In this document: in pieces, positions 8,895 through 24,145 of the stretch
How positions within the stretch are numbered: the stretch's first letter is position 1
Layout of the letters: each line of letters begins with the position of its first letter
From: Eremomyces bilateralis CBS 781.70
Taxonomy: Eukaryota; Ascomycota; Dothideomycetes; Eremomycetales; Eremomycetaceae
NCBI RefSeq assembly: GCF_010015585.1
Contig: NW_022985067.1
Location: forward strand, 965,453-1,004,501
Length of the DNA: 39,049 bases
Direction: 5' to 3'
The notes under the pieces: model-generated
The model's database searches: none
What the model was told of the DNA's origin: nothing
The model's input: the letters and a program-made list of their open reading frames with translations, nothing else
Translations under genes and position numbers: made by a program

Positions 8895-10337
8895 ATGAGA
8901 CTGCAACTTATTGCCGCTTGCTTTGCGGCAAGTGGCTTGCCCTTGGTAGCGGCGCAAACGGCGCAAGAACTTCTTAATTCAGTGTTAAACCCCGACCCAG
9001 GCTCATCAACCTATGCATCCTACTCGACGGAGATCTATTATAATGCGACTCTTTACAACCAGACAACCCAAATTTCGACCAGCTACTACAAGCTGGAAGC
9101 TTCCGCCAAGCTACGGCTGCCTCCAGCTGCGTACGATTATGCCGCAGGTGGTGCTGGATTGGAAACGACCGTTGCAGCGAATCGAGCGGCTTTTGACAAT
9201 GTCAGTGTCACATAGCTTCATATCACCACCTCAATACTAACTATTGTTAGTGGAGCATCGTTCCTCGAGTAATGCGTAACATACTCCCGAAGCGGAACCT
9301 TACCACTACGCTCTTCGGCAAGAGTCTACCGGCACCCATCGTCATGGCTCCCGTGGGAGTGCAGACGATGTTTCATCCGGATGGAGAGCGTGCCACAGCA
9401 AGTGTATTTGGGGAGCTAGGACTGCCGTATACCTTGAGTACAGCATCTAGTACCGGCTTTGTAGACGTCGCTGAGGCCAATGGGGACAATCCGAGATGGT
9501 ATCAGCTTTACTGGCCCACCGACGACGACCTGACCAGATCTTATCTAAAGTCGGCAAAGGAGAACGGATACGACGTTCTGGTTGTGACGGTGGACACTTG
9601 GGACTTAGGGTGGAGAACCCGCGACCTGGACCGGGGGTTCTTCCCCTTTATTCGAGGCATCGGAGTTCAAATTGGGCTCGAGGATGCCTGTGCACATGAA
9701 AAGTTGGGGTTCAACCCCTTGTCGCCCAATGCAACGGACGAACAAAAGCAGATGGCAGCACTTTATCACGTTATTTCGACATCCAGGGGGGTCTCCCCGA
9801 TATGGGAAAACCTGCCCAAACTGAGAGAATTTTGGGGCAAGGGACCAATCGTGCTTAAAGGGATACAGTCGGCAGACGATGCGAAGAAAGCTGTGGAACA
9901 TGGAGTCGACGGGATCATCGTGAGTAATGTAAGGAGAATTCTATGGATTATTTATTCTGTTTGCTAACGTGACGCAGCATGGTGGTCGCCAAATTGATGG
10001 GGCCATCGGCTCCCTTGACGCCCTATATGGAATTTCGAAAGCAGTTAAAGGCAAGATCACTATAGGCTTTGATGGCGGTATTCGTTCAGGAGCAGATATG
10101 TAAGTGTTATATGATTCTTTTGGCAGCGCCTGACCATGTTTTAGATTTAAAGCACTTGCGATTGGTGCCGACTTCGTTCAGATAGGTCGGCCAGTTCTAT
10201 GGGGGTTGGCTCATGAAGGAGCAGTCGGCGTTCGGCATGTGCTGAAATCTCTGCTTGCTGAATTCGATTTGACACTGGGTCTGTCGGGCTGTAAGAGCGT
10301 TCAGGAGTTAAACCAGTCTTTTCTCGTTGCTAGGTAA
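8895..10337 (+). CDS. Secreted FMN-dependent alpha-hydroxy-acid dehydrogenase/oxidase
   Basis: Four exons (8895-9200, 9251-9928, 9978-10099, 10145-10337) encode 432 residues of the lactate/glycolate oxidase family, which oxidises 2-hydroxy acids to 2-oxo acids using FMN. A signal peptide (about 1-20, ending LVAAQ) precedes the TIM barrel. Family marks are DYAAGGAG near the start, MAPVGVQ, WYQLYW, the catalytic-His block SNHGGRQID formed across the second splice site, FDGGIRSG and GADFVQIGRPVLWG for the FMN phosphate. The NHGGR motif is intact only after splicing, which supports the gene model. Most family members are intracellular, so the signal peptide is notable; similar secreted fungal forms are usually labelled lactate 2-monooxygenase-like. 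The substrate cannot be told. Confidence 0.9.
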
Positions 10338-10777
10338 CTAACCTTGGCCTATATTTTCTGGACAATGGCTTTGATTAAAGCAACAATCATTGTCTATCCG
10401 TCAGGTGATGCACATTAAGTGATACATTCCTAATCGGGAATGTACCCTTAGCTAGCTATAAATAGTCCTAGATTATCCTTCCGATGATAGACTTAGAATC
10501 ATCTCAATGAATGAGTTTTCAATCTAACAGGTTATGCAAGGGTCTCACTGTAGGGAATCTCCAATCGTGAGGCAAACGTAGAATTGTTGCTATGAAGGAG
10601 GAATCTATCTAAGGTGTGAAAGGCGTTTGTCCTTGTGCTGTGGAGCTGGAGTAACTAACAGTAATAGGCCACGAGGCCACTACGCTGTACGCATCCAAGT
10701 CCATAGCCCTCTGATCCACCTTAGGTTATAGTTAACTGAGCCTAACTTAGTTAACTTAGTTAACTAGTTAGTTAACT
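10338..10777. other. Intergenic region with TTAA-rich tract
   Basis: No gene is seen. From about 10725 to 10779 the sequence is a run of TTAACT/GTTAAC units that forms the left border of the MITE. Confidence 0.4.
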
Positions 10778-10779
10778 TA

Positions 10780-11213
10780 ACGTAATCCACCGCCGAGCTG
10801 CGAATATCACCGAGCTGCGAACTTCAAATCTCACCAAAATCGGGATATTTCATAACCCGATATCTCAACAACAGCATCATAATAAAATCTACAAGTTGAT
10901 AGATAGACTTTACTAGTCATTTTAAGCCTTTACTCAAATTCACAGAGCTCTAGCTATTGTAGTTGTAGATATACCTAGGTCATAGTAGATTCTTGCACCT
11001 TTTAGCACCTAGGATCTAGGTATATCTACCATTACAATAGCTAGAGCTCTATAAATATGAGTAAAGGCTTAAAATGACTAGTAAAGTCTATCTATCAACT
11101 TTAGATTTTATTATGATGCTGTTGTTGAGATATCGGGTTATGAAATATCCCGATTTTGGTGAGATTTGAAGTTCGCAGCTCGGTGGTATTCGCAGCTCGC
11201 TGGTGGATTACGT
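10780..11213. mobile_element. 434-bp foldback MITE with TA target duplication (pogo/Fot-type ends)
   Basis: The element begins ACGTAATCCACC and ends GGTGGATTACGT, flanked on both sides by TA (10778-10779 and 11214-11215). The two arms, about 195 nt each, are inverted copies of each other almost to the centre, with only scattered, mostly C/T differences, so the whole element is one long hairpin. There is no coding capacity. TA duplication and an ACGTAATC end fit non-autonomous Tc1/mariner-pogo elements; from memory the Aspergillus niger Vader/Tan1 ends start the same way. The arm similarity suggests a fairly young copy. Confidence 0.85.
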
Positions 11214-11355
11214 TAGTTAGTTGATGTACTTAACTAGTACTTTAGCACGACGAGTCGCTTTCGGGCTCCAGCACCATCTAAGCACAGCGAAGCAGTCCAG
11301 TTTCTTACTGGAGAGGTTTTGCAACCTCAAAAACCATTTTACAACTTCACTACAA

Positions 11356-11740
11356 CCCACCTTTCTGTTACCCTAGGTCCTAATAGAGTTTAGTTACGGA
11401 ATAAATTCTGATGACCCACAGTTGTACTCCGTAAACTGTGTGCTACCGAACTTCCGTTCGTAGATTAGCATCGCCCTATCTGGTATAGCGCTGATTTTCG
11501 TTTTCAATGAAAATCTCACCAGCCCTTCTAATTACAGTACAGTAATTCATCATTCCCTAGTCGCAAGATGGCCCTGTTGATTTCAATTGCCACCTATATT
11601 CATTTCGCTGCCCATTACCCCTAGAACTAAGCCTATTTAGGACTGCTCAGTCCTTTCCGACGTATTTACATATCTTCAACGGTTATCTAGCTAGATCTCT
11701 TTTTTGGAGAGAAGGGGAATCGTCAATAATAACATATATT
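11356..11740. repeat. Possible degenerate LTR fragment
   Basis: The stretch starts TGTTAC and ends AATAACA, the TG...CA form of LTR ends. Its last 50-60 nt (TATTTAC..., CTAGATCTCT, GGAATCGTCAATA) resemble the end of the LTR-like repeat near 38640-38705. No flanking 5-bp duplication was found and no coding part is present. It is an old fragment. Confidence 0.3.
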
Positions 11741-11904
11741 GTGTCTCTACAGTAACTGAGCTTAAGCTGCGAACCTGCTTAATCATCACCCCGCGTAATG
11801 CGACACATGCTATATTCTATGGTTTCGCCGACCAAAATAGGTCTATACCACGAATTCGCCCGTACAGACTAATTACGTGGTGATCAAGAAGATGGTCTGG
11901 ACTC

Positions 11905-12236
11905 CTATATTACGTCTATCCAGACATCTTGTCTATAGATGATGGTCTCCAGCTCTATATCACCATTAACACCCTGCCTAAACCAGTGCTGTAAGCAGAT
12001 CAAATTCCTTAAGGTGGGCGCCTCCATCCGTGTCCTCTCCGTATCCAAGATTCTCCCGCAAGCTGACCAGATCCGCTCCATATCAGCGGCCGATGAAGGA
12101 GTCACGAAAAGGTCTATCGCGATCTAATATAGAGAGGGATATCGCGTGCGATTAGCTACCCACCAGGCGATAGGAGTTTCGGTAGGGAAAAGGCCCTCTG
12201 CGAGGTATTGAGAGACCTCATTAGATATGGGTGTTT
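11905..12236 (-). pseudogene. Relic of a hAT transposase C-terminus
   Basis: Read on the minus strand, the frame has a WW (IAWWVANRTRYPSLY), an in-frame TAG, then LFVTPSSAADMERIWSACG and a terminal LRNLICLQHWF. The order W-W, RYP-x-L, S-x-E-R-x-x-S, C-L-x-x-W-F is that of the hAT dimerisation region that ends Ac/hobo-type transposases. The stop sits where the family normally has a residue such as Gln, so CAG to TAG is likely. Upstream parts of the transposase are not recognisable. Confidence 0.55.
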
Positions 12237-16459: not shown

Positions 16460-17094
16460 CCTGGTGTACCTACGTCAACACCTAGACGACCCTGTGGCGA
16501 TGGATTGAGGAAAGTGGGAACAAAGGAGCGGCAGGAATGCAAAGCGACTTAAAGGAAAGAATATCAGGATCCTTATGCCCTTGAGCGGACAAGTCAGGGA
16601 AGAGAAAATACAATACAATGGTTTCGGGAAACAGGCAACGAAAGAGTGCCCTGCAAAGTTTGACCCAAAGATCTGTAAGCTGGAACGCGCGGATTCTACG
16701 AAGTAGTTATGGGACGCGACGAAATCCATCTCTTCTTGGGTCCCGTATAGGCTGGGCCTTGGCTAATTCGAAGTTCATAAGAAGGTGATGTGTACGTTAG
16801 GCAGGTAGGTTCGAGCCAGCGCGACCCGCGCGTCCCGGACTGAACACCAAGAGATTTGGCGGGCTGTGTCAACGTTCGAGAAGAAAAGAAAAGTTCTGTC
16901 TGAAATGAAAATTAGTCTCAGATACCTCAGCCGCTGAAAGGCACGTGACAAGGAAGATCCGAAGACTTGGCGCCACTACCAACAGCGTCTGAGCCAAAAT
17001 CCCAGGATTTGGTGTAGCTTTCCCAACCGAAATCACGATAACGAACATATTGAAGGCCATTCTGCTGCTTTTCGACAACTAATTGGCGTTTAAA
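16460..17094. other. Upstream region of the ABC transporter
   Basis: No gene is supported. The region is likely the transporter's promoter and 5' leader, ending where the AT-rich left flank of the helicase element begins near 17085-17100. No clear TATA box or regulator site could be named. Confidence 0.35.
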
Positions 17095-17100
17095 AAAAAT

Positions 17101-17391
17101 ATAGATACTATACTTTTGATTATTACCTTTCAGACTATCTACTTTTAAAGAGTCCCTACGCCCTATGGACTGAGATCAATTGCAATCTAGTTGCACTATT
17201 CCATGTTAAGGGCTCTCAACATATTTCCATCCATCTCGACTCCTGATGCACAATATACCCCATTAAGATCCGTATATCCATCTAAAACATATAGAAAATA
17301 TACTTTCAATCATTCTCTGTAAGGATAACTACTTATAAAGCAATCTCCCCTTCTGGATATTGAGATTAATTCGGGTTTAGTTGACCTATCC
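17101..17391 (+). repeat. Diverged direct repeat with 190-nt period at the left flank of the helicase element
   Basis: Copy 1 (17101-17202) and copy 2 (17291-17391) share the same order of blocks: ATAGA...TATACTTT, an ACTACTT/ATCTACTT plus TTAAAG/ATAAAG block, a TGGACTGAGAT/TGGATATTGAGAT block, then TAGTTG and CTATTCC/CTATCC. A further CATTAAGA...CCTTATA motif just before the helicase ATG may be a third, partial copy. Such subterminal repeats are common near transposon ends. Confidence 0.5.
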
Positions 17392-17513
17392 CTGGCCTAT
17401 TCCTTCAAACGCTGCCAAACTTGCTCAAATATTCCTTAAATTATAATACATATTCCATCAAAGTCAATCCCCCTATCATTAAGAGTCCTTATACAGTATA
17501 GAACATTCTCTTT

Positions 17514-20191
17514 ATGCCACCAAAGCAGAAGCGGGGGGCTAAACCAAAGCAAGACTGGCGAACCAACATCAATCTATTTTCCGAAGTCGACCCAGTTAAG
17601 AAGGAGGAGCTGCAGGATATACAAAGGAGAGTTGAGAGGTGTAGGGAGGCACAATGGCAGGATCAGATATTGGTGGTTAAAGAAGGAATCCAGTCCTTCT
17701 TTGGGTTTGAAGCAAAGGATGACCAGGCACGGTGTATTGCACACCTCCTTTTCAAACAGAGAGACCTGATCTTAACTGCAAAGACATCCTTTGGCAAGAG
17801 CTTAATCCATCAAGCACTACCATGCCTCTCTAGAGGATCTGTTGCCATTGTGATCGTCCCTCTTGATGCACTTGGTAAAGAGCAAGAAAAGAAGATCTCA
17901 TTAATCCCTGGAACCCGACCAATCTTCTTAAATGCATCAAACACGAACGATGGAGTGATTCAAGAAGTACAGAAAGGTGCTTACACTCATATTATTACCT
18001 CACCAGAGCAATTGATTGGCAAGAGGTTCCGTATCCTTATCCAGGATCGGCTCTTTCGGTCCCATCTGCTCTCTGTTTGTATTGACGAGCTTCATCTCGT
18101 TTTTGACTGGGGTGATAAGTTCCGCCATTCCTATACAGAACTACGTATCGTCCGACGGGAGCTTGAAGATATTCCGTGGTTTGGAACCACTGCAACTCTG
18201 GACCGGTTAACATTATCCCATGTCCGGGGGCTCCTAGAATTATCAGACCATATTCAGGTTATTCAAACAGACACCAACCGAGAGGATCTTACCTATATTG
18301 CCAAGCAGATCCCTATACATACACAGAAGTCATTTCTCGGGTTGAATTTCCTGCTCGAAGGTGCATTTCGACATTGTGTAAACAGGGAACAAGACCTACC
18401 AGGGGGATGTTGTGATGCTTGTCATTGTCAAGGAAAAGGGTTTATACCTACGCCTGAGCAAATTGATAAAACCATCATCTTTTTTAAGGCAAAGCGCGAG
18501 ATCCGGGAGTGCACTAAGATAATCCGTTCATGGTTCCAAGAATATGGATATTCTGAGATACTAGCGAAGGACACAGTGGCACAATATGGTACCATGCTGA
18601 CCTAAGCGAACATGAGAAACAAGGGATATACTCAAAATTCTACCATTCCCCTATCAGGATCCTCCTTTCAACAGATGCACTTGCACATGGTTGCGATATT
18701 CCAGATATCACAAGATCTATTATATGGAAAATTCCTCCTGATAATCTGATCAACCTTATCCTACAACGGTTTGGGCGTGCTGCTCGAAGCGTGCCAGCTG
18801 GGACTGCTATCCTTTTCTTCCAACAATCTTACCAAGGGCACCGAACTCGTGCAAAAGATATGCAAAAGGAGCATCAACACCAGACTACTCAGGGAGGTTT
18901 ACCCGAAGGAGAAGATCCAGGAGACCTCAATTCATCTACTTCAGATGATGACGATGATGAAGAAGAGCCTTTAATAGGAGAAGGAGCTAAAGGATCATCA
19001 TCTCGCGAAGACCATTTGAGCCAAACCCCCAAAGGCCAGAAATCGAAAGCAAGACTATCAGAAGCAGAGAGACGTGGACTTCTCCCTAACACCATTTACC
19101 AGCTCTGCAATACCAATGGTGAACGGTGGATCCGGGAGTTAATCAATACACACTACGAATGCAAAACACCAGAACGCGACCCTATTACATGCTGTGGAAG
19201 TTGTAACCCTGAACTCCTGTCTACTTTGGACACACAAATCAAGACTAGCCAGGACAAGGCAATGGCTGCAAAGAGGCTTCGACCATTAGTTGATTCCCTT
19301 AAACTCTTTTTTTATAAAGAGGCGCAAAGGGAATATCCAACTACGGACATTTGTTATACACCATATTAGCAATGGTTAATATTCCGTGAGGAACTATCAA
19401 TACTTGCAAACACATACAACCAGCTTCAGGAGAGCGTGCCAAAGGAACAAAAACCAGATGGATATTATATCCTTCTTTTTGGAGATTTGCTAGACATTCG
19501 CAAGGCTTTACCACAAAACGAATGGATACGTGAGGATGGACATTTGATAAGCCTAGGGAAAGCATTGGAGAGCTATAAACATGCTCAGTACCAATTAAAG
19601 GAAGAGAAACAGCGCACGATCGAAGATAAAAGGAGGCAGGCTTTGGCAAGGAAAGCTCAAGAGAAAGAAAGGTCACAAGATAAAGCGATTGGCCTATCCT
19701 TATTGTTTGAGCCTGGACATCCAACCTTTACGCCCCATTTGAAGCCCCCTTGCCCATCTGTCAGTGATGCTCCTCAGCCTATACAAGAGCATCAGCTATC
19801 TCCAGTTACACAAGATACTAGTGCTTACCCAAAATCCCCGAAACGACGTCAAGGTGCACAAGTACAACAGCTGTATACTCTTCCAGATATTTCGAGCCTC
19901 CCTGAAGGTAGCAGCCTCCTCAAACTTCTAATGCCAATGTCTACTATTGGTGATAAAGATCTAGCACCAACTAAGCGACGGCAGCAAGGGCAGAAGTTGG
20001 TAAATCAACCAGCGCCTTTACAGCCGATGGCTACAGATCATACCATCCTCCCTCTCCGACCAAATAGCGGTGATCAATTTCAACATGATGAGACTTTATA
20101 TGACCCACTCCGAGTAATGATCTTATATGGATCATATGGTAGCAATAAAGCATCGTGTACATCATTGTCCTCCTTTTTTCGAGCAGTATAG
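17514..20191 (+). pseudogene. RecQ-family DNA helicase, decayed
   Basis: From the ATG at 17514 the first 363 codons hold the RecQ core: motif 0 KDDQARCI, motif I TAKTSFGKSL, DELH in motif II followed by DWGDKFRHSYTEL as in RecQ proteins, motif III GTTATL, and IIFFKAKREIRE of motif IV. The frame then shifts at about 18575-18590, and the next frame carries YHADLSEHEK, motif V STDALAHGCDIPD and motif VI QRFGRAAR. It goes on through an acidic DDDDDEEE linker and a Cys pair region (CCGSCN) to a TAG at 19367, after which the same frame continues another 270 codons, Lys/Glu- then Pro-rich, to 20191. There is thus about one frameshift and one internal stop in an otherwise complete gene of about 890 codons. 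Family members unwind DNA 3'-5'. Here the job is presumably replication or excision of the element, which is inference. Confidence 0.75.
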
Positions 20192-22705
20192 ATTGAGAAT
20201 GCAAGATGGATGATATCCCGCTGTGCTGAGCTGATAGTATAGGAGTCATTGATCTTGATCTTAAATGTGTCTTCTAAGTATTTAGAGATCTTCTGAGTGG
20301 CAGACATAGCCCATACTCCATGGGAGAAAATCTTCTCCATGCCAAATGTCGATGTTGTCCCATGGGCTGATAGGTAGTCTTTGATATTCCGATTCAAATG
20401 CTCCACGTCAAGATCAAACTCATGCCACGAGTTTAGACTCCTCTCCTGATTGTTAATCAAGCCCCCTGCTAGGATAGCATCTTGTAAATCCTTGTCGGAG
20501 GCTCGAGTACATGTTTGGGTAAAGAGGAGAAGCATCTCATATCGGTATTAGTCTCGCTTAGCTCCTGCAAAGATAATGGCATACTGTGCAAGTGCCCGTC
20601 GGAGTTGACCAATATCACCAAACTTGATTGCATATCGGAGGGTTAGGTAGGCCTCGACGATTGAAATAAATCGAAGATGGTTTATACGCTCGATCTCGCC
20701 GAGTCTCTTTTGTGGAAGTGAGGATCCTGCATACTTTTTGAAAGTCTTGGGTGGGATTGTTTCCGAAATGGTCTTGTATGCTGTAGGCGAAAGCCAGTTC
20801 CGGAGTGTCTGCATCTCTGCTTCGTAAGGAAGGTCTTGGGACTGGGCCCGGGCGTCAGCACTGAAGAGCTGTTGGTAAACTGCATCAAGACAGGACTGGA
20901 ATTGAGCTGGTGATAGACCTCCTAGGCGTGTTGAAAGTTGTTCAATGTTAGGGGGATAGAAGCTGCCTGTAACGTGTTCAATCACGAAGCAAATAACTCT
21001 AGCATAAAAGCTATGTATAATCACTTCTTCCATGATCTTGAATGAGGCATTCTCGCGAGAAAAGCCACGTCGGTTAAGGAAGGTTGCGCTGTGACAAAGA
21101 GTCGATGAAAGGAAATTGCAGCTTTCAATGCCATAAAACTCGCGGGTAATCAGATAAAGGAAATTCAAGCGTGTATGCCAAAGGGCTGGGACTGGATGTA
21201 GCCAGTTGTAAGCATCAAAGGGCCTTTCAGAATCAGCACGCTCTTTGATACAGCTCCGAAGAAGTCTGACTGTTTTAACATCTCCATATACCAGGAAGAG
21301 GCGTTCAGTAAAGTCTGTCTCGATATTAAACTTAAAAAAATCTAAGAATATCTTCTCGAGGATTTGGTGATTCCCATTTGTAGTAGACTGGTTGACTGGT
21401 ATAGGCCCAAGGTTATTCTTCACTGTCTTCTCTGCTTGGAGTCGATCGATTGTTGGAAACTCAGGAAGCTTAATCCGTTTCGCCTTCAGTTGTCGAGTTG
21501 CGTCAGGGAGGGCTAATTCAATTGCCTGCCGAATCAGGAATAAGGCGTTCTGTTTTTAGATGCCTGAAGCATCAGGTAATTGGACTCCATCATAGTTGAA
21601 GAGATGTGGAGGCCGGATGGTAAACGGTCTCCGCATTGTCTGTACAAGACCATTTTCAGGCATCCGAGGACAGACTGCTGCAATTCCAGATGTATAGCTG
21701 AACATCTCGCCTGTATTCCCAATCCGCTGATGGGATGGTCGCTCATGCCCATCACAATTGTCCATTGCAATGGCCAGTCCGGGATATTTTGCAAACCGTT
21801 TAAGGCTATGCTAGATGTGGTTAGAAAGTTGGAATATAGTATCATATGACTGTAGAAAAAATACCATTTCTGTGCTGATTGTCTCCTGTGTAGAATCTCG
21901 AAGCGTATTATATGTAGGAGTCATCCCGAAGGCATGGAGATACTTTAGACCTTTGCGAGACAGACCTGCAGCTTGTAATGTAATCCCAATTCTCTTAGGA
22001 AGATTATTTGATAGCTTTTTATGCCGGGAAAAGGCCAATGAGGACGCAATCATTGTAGTGAGTCCATGATGAGGTTTCTGGCCAGATTGTTTCGTCTTGC
22101 TTAGGGTTGGGCAACTGACTCAACGATAGAGAAGAATAATGGTGCCCTATGTCGGACAATCTGGTGCATGCTTCCAACATTCCCAGGGGTCTTTTCAGCG
22201 TCCCATGCCCCAAAAAATTGAGATTCGTCTTGCATCAGGTTTTCAAATTCATCTGCGATGATGCAGGTAAAGACATGTCGAAGAATAGAAAGAATACGCT
22301 TAGGCTTATGCTTGATGATATAGCGTTGCGTGTCGGAATCAAGGAGAATATCAAGAAGAAACCCTTCTACAAGTTGATGCTTTCCAGTCTGCCTTTGCCC
22401 TGTATGCTTATCGATCATAAAAAGGAGGAACTGGTTCCTAGAAAAATGACCCTTCTTCATCATTGCCATGATTTCGGTATAGCAGGCATGAGTTGCTTTG
22501 TTTTGAGCTTTCGGTGTAGTATTCGGGGCACCATCATCGGTGAACGGAAGGGAAAAGTTAGAGGGGGTATCTTCGGCCTCTTCAATCGACTCTTCTTCAG
22601 ATAATGTATCATCTGTGTCTGAAATTATTTATCATTTAGTATATGATCATTGTAAGGTTAGATAGACATACCGTATGAAGTTTCACAATTAGAGGATAAA
22701 GACAT
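20080..22705 (-). pseudogene. DUF6589-type protein, candidate transposase, decayed
   Basis: The likely start is the ATG at 22705: a short exon (22705-22672), a 53-nt intron, an acidic Ser/Glu-rich N-terminus, then a conserved body. A second intron of 57 nt with a CTAAC branch site interrupts the gene near 21805-21865. Recognisable family blocks are AIAMDNCDGHER, MFSYTSGIA, LFLVYGD followed by WLHPVPALWHTRLNFLY, and near the end EFDLDVEHLNRNIKDY with the AHG...EKIF tail; this is the pattern of the DUF6589 family. The frame is broken by a shift near 22090-22105 and by in-frame TAA codons at 21556 and 20548. Expected length is about 860 residues. The acids in AMDN, VYGD and VEHLN could be an RNase H-like catalytic triad, but that is my inference. 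Function in the family is not established to my knowledge. Confidence 0.65.
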
Positions 22706-22830
22706 CTTTAGTGATGTTCAAAAACTAATAGATAATGTGAAGCTTGATCTAACGATTCAAATGATATTAATATTATGTTATGAATATGTCCGGTCTCAAC
22801 AATCAATTCAAGATAACTTTCATACATCAC

Positions 22831-24145
22831 CACATATAAGGTGGCGGGAAAGGCTCACGAAGGCAGGACTTTCTGGCTTAGGCCCCCGTCGTGCTGGCTC
22901 CGCCAATCACCTTCAGGGGGATACCAGGGTCCACCGAAAGGTGGCCTGAGGTATCTGAGGCTAGTTTAGACGACATTATCGTTTAGAGTGTAGGCGCTAA
23001 CTAGATTAAGGATCTAGCGTCGACAGTGTGGATGAGGTAAGCTTCAGCTGACGAACCAGGGGCGCGGATAGTGCCATCCCGGCGATGGTAGGACCGAGAC
23101 ATGCGTATGACAAATGATGCAGTTCGGGTGAAGGCCATGTGAAATACAAGACTTCGTAGCATGCGTGTGTTAGTGCTGACGGTGACTCTGTGGGTATGGA
23201 CCAGCAACCACAACTACCACACAGTATTGACAAACATTGTGACGTTCTCCTTGTACTTTTATCTCCCCTGTCCAATAATGCCAATTACTCGAAGCGATAC
23301 TGCAGAGTACGTACTTGTGGTCCGCGCCTCGCTGAAATAAACTACAGAAATAACTCTGCCAAGCTTCACTGTACCGGGGAAACTGTGTGGCCACGGATGC
23401 ACGCTCATGTCCTCCAGATCTCATTGAGCCCGAACAAGGTGTACTGAAGTACTAAACAGGGGGTTCAATGGCTGGTCAAATGTAGGAGCAGACCAGCAGC
23501 AAATTTATATCCGGGATTCTCCGAATAGAGTTGTGTACAGCACTCAAAAAATACCCGTACCTCATGGGCCCCATTGCGATACAACACTGCTCCGCCTCAC
23601 GAAGTACAACAACCTCAAACTAGCTTGATCAAAGCCTAACACTGACGCAGGCTGTCCTTTCGCATCGGGGGGCATGTTACATCTCAGGTCGAGACTCCCA
23701 GCCAAAGGGAGACGCTAGAGCCAAGGGCAGGATGTACGACAAGGAAACCTGAAGGTTCAAGGCCCTATACGGGACCCGTTCACCTCGGAGCTCCGGCTTA
23801 CTATGAAGACCTGCAGGTCCGGGCATCCGATTTTGAGTTGGACCGCAAGTCTCCATTACTCTGGCTGATGACCGTGGCAAAGATCCTCTGGTCTTTGAAG
23901 CAGGCTGCGTATTCATTCCATCTCGTTCAGGGAATAGAACGTGTTCCATCAAATCGGCGTCTACATGGCGCCATTTGCCAGCTTCGGATCCAAAATCTGG
24001 GAGGTCGTACACACCAGGTCTGGCTTTCCAGGAGCATACAAAAGAAAGACGATGTCATGCAAAATATTCAAGACACCCATTACAAGCTCTCTCAAGAAGA
24101 AGCATATAGACAAGACCGCCTCAGCTGGCCCCGTGACACTTCAAC
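22831..24145. other. Intergenic region, promoter side of the SGNH gene
   Basis: No gene is supported. Small hairpin-forming blocks (GGTCCACCGAAAGGTGG, 22930-22946) occur just past the helicase element. Nothing with domain support was found in any frame. Confidence 0.35.

Follow-up and report, generated by a model that had tools for sequence, protein, structure and literature searches.

The window analysed here, a 39,049-nucleotide stretch of the Eremomyces bilateralis CBS 781.70 genome (contig NW_022985067.1, positions 965,453 to 1,004,501), holds a copy of a mobile element in which a RecQ-like helicase gene and a DUF6589 gene converge tail to tail. The helicase gene, on the plus strand, encodes the DELH and QRFGRAAR motifs and matched Pfam DEAD (E 1.2e-13) and Helicase_C (E 1.3e-11). 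The minus strand matched Pfam DUF6589 in two pieces (E 2.4e-41 and 6.5e-11). Both genes are broken, and the element forms an AT-rich island, with a guanine-plus-cytosine (GC) content of 43.6%, compared with 50.8% and 50.4% in the DNA on either side. An earlier note on this DNA had recognised the two convergent genes, the helicase motifs, the broken state of both genes and the AT-rich island, and had placed the unit at 17095-22830. The real unit is larger and runs from 16913 to 22963, as revealed by a second (sister) copy elsewhere on this contig (G000:C1, about 1431459-1437815) that is 92-93% identical and has the same two ends, TAGYCTCAGATACCYCAG. A repeat scan found the corresponding inverted repeat in the window, with arms at 16909 and 22967. 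The features are collected in Table 1.

Table 1. Features of the copy in the window, in window coordinates; TIR, terminal inverted repeat.
Feature	Position	Strand	Basis
Whole transposon copy, 6051 bp, decayed	16913..22963		Limits of the similarity to the sister copy
TIR, helicase side	16913..16930	+	18 bp, 17/18 matching the opposite end
TIR, DUF6589 side	22946..22963	-	Pairs with the helicase-side TIR
RecQ-like helicase gene, broken	17514..20191	+	Open frames, ATG and stops, Pfam DEAD and Helicase_C
DUF6589 (probable transposase) gene, broken	20080..22628	-	Open frames, stops, Pfam DUF6589
Junction where 326 bp of the sister copy are absent	20093..20095		Alignment of both copies

Neither protein can be made whole by the window copy. 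The helicase frame shifts between 18557 and 18605 and meets a stop at 19367, and the DUF6589 frame is interrupted by stops at 20548 and 21556 and shifts between 22101 and 22119. Another DUF6589 stop, at 21811, is probably intronic and not a true break, because it is common to the sister copy and is placed immediately ahead of a conserved Asp. Repeat-induced point mutation was not indicated as the cause of this decay by either of its indices (TpA/ApT 0.72; second index 1.44). Long open frames for both genes were seen in other lineages of the same plan within this genome. A second AT-rich stretch of the window, from 10000 to 12000 (41-43% GC), lies outside the element.

The earlier note had also described a 3' overlap of about 110 nt between the two genes. 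An overlap of about 112 nt is indeed present in the window copy, where the plus frame ends at 20191 and the minus frame at 20080, but it does not hold as a feature of the element, since the two open frames are separated by 81-475 bp in the ten better-preserved copies that we read. The overlap is therefore best explained as the product of a local deletion: relative to the sister copy, the window copy is without 326 bp at 20093, and its DUF6589 tail stops earlier. The converse, an insertion of the 326 bp in the sister copy, is a formal possibility.

The pairing recurred throughout the genome. There were 18 DUF6589 matches, 17 of them above the Pfam cut-off, and a RecQ-like helicase adjoined 14 of the 18 (the C17 helicase being taken from open frames), tail to tail in every one of the 14. 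The earlier note had proposed a count of this kind for fungal genomes, and the refuting case that it named, in which the two genes are not neighbours elsewhere, was not borne out. Its suggestion of a co-inherited pair was also supported by the identity matrices of the two proteins, which correlated over 10 paired loci or species (r 0.98, permutation p 1e-4), a value driven in large part by three deep lineages. By similarity, these lineages are A (the window copy and its sister), B and C. Between them, protein identity was 29-36% for DUF6589 and 27-41% for the helicase, and within lineages B and C, counting their outside relatives, it was 84-100% and 67-100%, respectively. Separate loci were 99.7-99.95% identical in lineage B and 99.9% identical in lineage C. 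Together with the many short deleted copies, this near-identity implied recent movement.

The four unpaired DUF6589 matches were two short fragments (C5 and C24), a fragment on C3 and the C12 copy. The C3 match, first assigned to a 1914-residue open frame (G000:C3), was set aside as a fragment next to a run of N. The C12 copy (L084, G000 C12:219485-224500) has a DUF6589 gene with one stop and a left end resembling that of lineage C; no helicase is listed for it, and no right end was found up to 224500.

The ends were sharp in all lineages. The lineage B end is TTACCTCAGC and the lineage C end is TTATCTCAGC. With up to two mismatches, the 20-bp end of lineage B gave 79 matches versus 1 for the reversed control, 11 of the rows having two mismatches and being mostly the C-type end, and the lineage C end gave 26 versus 0. 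Many of these B and C ends form pairs about 0.13-3.3 kb apart, which are short copies. The window-type end pattern occurred exactly at 4 sites of the genome and with one mismatch at 2, and the two known copies account for four of these six sites with their ends. At up to three mismatches this pattern gave 53 matches versus 70 for the reversed control, so that no more lineage A copies were revealed.

Target duplications were tabulated for the 27 elements in which both ends were recognised and both flanks were read, single ends being left out; where the ends were doubled, in six elements, each of the two candidates was considered. An 8-bp duplication was perfect in 16 elements and matched at 7/8 in 3, and the chance probability of an 8/8 match is about 1.5e-5 per try. 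At other lengths there was no perfect match at 7, one at 9 (9/9 in a single element) and none at 10. The perfect cases included C26a (6016 bp) and C26b (6658 bp), two full-length copies that have the helicase gene as well as the DUF6589 gene. The remaining 7 elements had no duplication (C2a, C8, C21, C1m, C13, C1:1824816-1825514 and the window copy, in which 3/8 matched), and the sister copy of the latter had 7/8. No strong common sequence was seen among the 16 duplication sites. Alignment of the copies with their flanks, as the earlier note had recommended, thus yielded shared ends and duplications. Inverted repeats at sharp, shared ends and a target duplication of fixed length, the latter absent from the window copy, are marks of a class II TIR transposon, as is a DDE transposase of RNase-H fold (considered below). 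The ends, the duplications and the near-identical copies strongly support the unit as a mobile element.

Two irregularities were observed at the ends. Ends doubled in the same direction, 80-97 bp apart, were found at eight loci (C2, C3, C14, C17, C20, C21, C22 and C40; L046, L053, L058, L062, L065, L067). In C3, C14, C22 and C40 the perfect duplication flanks the outer of the doubled ends, and the two ends therefore appear to have been mobilised together. The C5 and C8 copies (L054-L057) share a 14-nt left flank, and in C8 the left and right flanks are reverse complements of each other. The intact palindrome that would represent an empty site for these flanks had 0 matches.

The DUF6589 protein resembled known transposases in its predicted fold. 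A confident model of its core had the P-element, Hermes and RAG1 transposases as best structural matches, with sequence identity below 12% in the structural alignments. Foldseek without realignment gave no match to the model at E <=0.001, and the sole match from a profile search of PDB sequences with DUF6589 (E 0.21) was not credible. The model of the N-terminal 301 residues was poor (predicted local distance difference test, pLDDT, 55.3) and was not used. Two Asp residues and one Glu are invariant in DUF6589 and occupy plausible catalytic places in the model. This arrangement and the fold of the model indicate that DUF6589 is very probably an Asp-Asp-Glu (DDE) transposase. hAT and P elements also make 8-bp duplications. 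DUF6589 differs from the P-element, hAT (Hermes) and RAG1/Transib transposases in its low identity to them, in the helicase gene that accompanies it, and in its motif. A C/DxxH signature between the second D and the last E is given for Kolobok, hAT, P, MuDR and Dada (PMC10045372), and it is absent from the DUF6589 alignment; H211 is conserved in 33/33 covered rows, and the residue three positions earlier is mostly Ala, Ser or Gly.

For the helicase, a relative from the same genome (P0054) had human RECQ1 and WRN as its nearest solved structures (E about 1e-16). Pfam DEAD and Helicase_C were reported in the three helicase relatives scanned, and RQC and RecQ_Zn_bind had no match in them.

Taken together, these results make it very likely that the window copy is a decayed autonomous DNA transposon, with DUF6589 as its transposase and the convergent RecQ-like helicase as an accessory protein. 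We infer that it moved by DDE cut-and-paste and not by a rolling-circle route. The DUF6589 protein would have an RNase-H-like DDE core interrupted by a wholly helical insertion, the layout of the P-element, hAT and RAG1 transposases. After binding to the inverted ends it would excise the element, and a staggered cut at insertion would create the 8-bp target duplications. The RecQ-like helicase may have a part in transposition; carried as an accessory, it would most likely unwind DNA at the element ends or at gaps and excision sites, which might aid strand transfer or repair.

Elements that combine a transposase with a RecQ helicase are already known. AcademH DNA transposons of the Academ superfamily reportedly go back to Kojima, 2020. 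AcademH carries a helicase and makes target duplications of 9 or 10 bp (PMC10045372), and its copy number is low in the Ascomycota and the other fungi that have it (PMC10799480). A RecQ helicase is described in Academ (PMC3627910), fungal Academ copies have DEAD and recQ domains and are commonly annotated as host genes (PMC6416283), and a RecQ helicase is likewise part of KolobokH (PMC9587614). The remark of the earlier note that it knew of no described transposon with this pairing was therefore too strong. These accounts also make it a probable explanation that the element is plain AcademH in the Repbase sense, with DUF6589 as the Academ transposase and only the duplication length unusual. 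Like AcademH, it has a probable transposase with an adjoining superfamily 2 (SF2) helicase in an ascomycete genome. However, the duplications here are 8 bp and not the 9 or 10 bp stated for AcademH. Because of this difference we file the element as a variant working like AcademH, and on balance we expect it to prove to be Academ. A less likely reading is that DUF6589 is the transposase of a superfamily apart from Academ, one with 8-bp duplications, a regular convergent RecQ-like helicase, three deep lineages in one genome and movement between fungal classes. The convergent DUF6589-RecQ arrangement was not found in print, and DUF6589 went unnamed and PF20231 appeared only in an unrelated context, within an incomplete coverage of the literature.

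Kolobok inserts at TTAA. KolobokH is likewise fungal and combines a transposase with a RecQ helicase. Its helicase is said to lie downstream and it is characterised by TTAA and C/DxxH, whereas here the helicase is convergent, the 8-bp duplications are without TTAA and there is no C/DxxH.

An improbable alternative is that these are subtelomeric, telomere-linked helicases spread by recombination at chromosome ends. Such helicases are also multi-copy RecQ-like genes, RecQ genes near fungal telomeres have been described (PMC4522978; PMC12857005), and 10 of the 14 paired copies lie at contig ends. In contrast, the window copy is at an interior site, about 0.98 Mb into a contig of 2.39 Mb, its helicase is enclosed in a TIR element with a probable transposase, and the target duplications show transposition. 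At least three contigs (C28, C7 and C29) stop at the same base within near-identical copies, as assembly breaks would. Since contigs break inside such copies and the (TTAGGG)3 count in the assembly is 0, which leaves chromosome ends unrecognisable, we make no statement on chromosome ends.

Still less credible is a rolling-circle or Helitron-like element whose helicase serves replicative movement; the earlier note had suggested that the helicase might be used for replicative or rolling movement. The element does carry a helicase. Helitrons have no inverted repeats or target duplication and encode a Rep (HUH) protein, whereas here both ends bear inverted repeats, 8-bp duplications are present and the partner protein is DDE-like, so rolling movement is unsupported; in the element proteins scanned, Pfam matched no Rep (HUH) domain. 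That two ordinary host genes came to lie tail to tail by chance can be dismissed, as no point in its support was found and 14 of 18 matches are paired in the same orientation in a multi-copy unit with shared ends.

Returning to the DUF6589 transposon, relatives were not confined to Eremomyces. Proteins sharing 80-94% identity with the lineage B transposase, in some cases across no more than a third to half of its length, were found in Stachybotrys, Fusarium, Dactylonectria, Metarhizium, Bisporella, Calycina and Cadophora, genera of other fungal classes than Eremomyces. Among the matches listed, which give just the longest contig per cluster, a helicase on a contig of exactly equal size accompanies two of the nine named non-Eremomyces DUF6589 records, those of Stachybotrys elegans and Dactylonectria macrodidyma, and none is listed for the other 7. 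A metagenome contig size of 6756 bp occurs in both the DUF6589 and the helicase lists; if this is one contig, the genes must be neighbours. The transposases of the dothideomycete Eremomyces and of Stachybotrys are about 90% identical, which suggests horizontal transfer. When viral contigs were searched with a DUF6589 protein and a helicase protein as queries, no relatives were confirmed. In Metarhizium anisopliae BRIP 53284, a single gene model (P0017) fuses a Piwi domain to DUF6589, which could reflect insertion into an Argonaute gene or a mistake in the model.

These observations provide a likely function for the Pfam family DUF6589, and they imply that some of the helicase genes commonly assigned to the host in annotations can belong to transposons. 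An accessory enzyme has been proposed to relate to duplication length (PMC10045372), and the difference in length from AcademH bears on that idea. With its near-identical copies, short non-autonomous derivatives and clear duplications, the family offers a system for testing what a transposon-borne RecQ-like helicase does.
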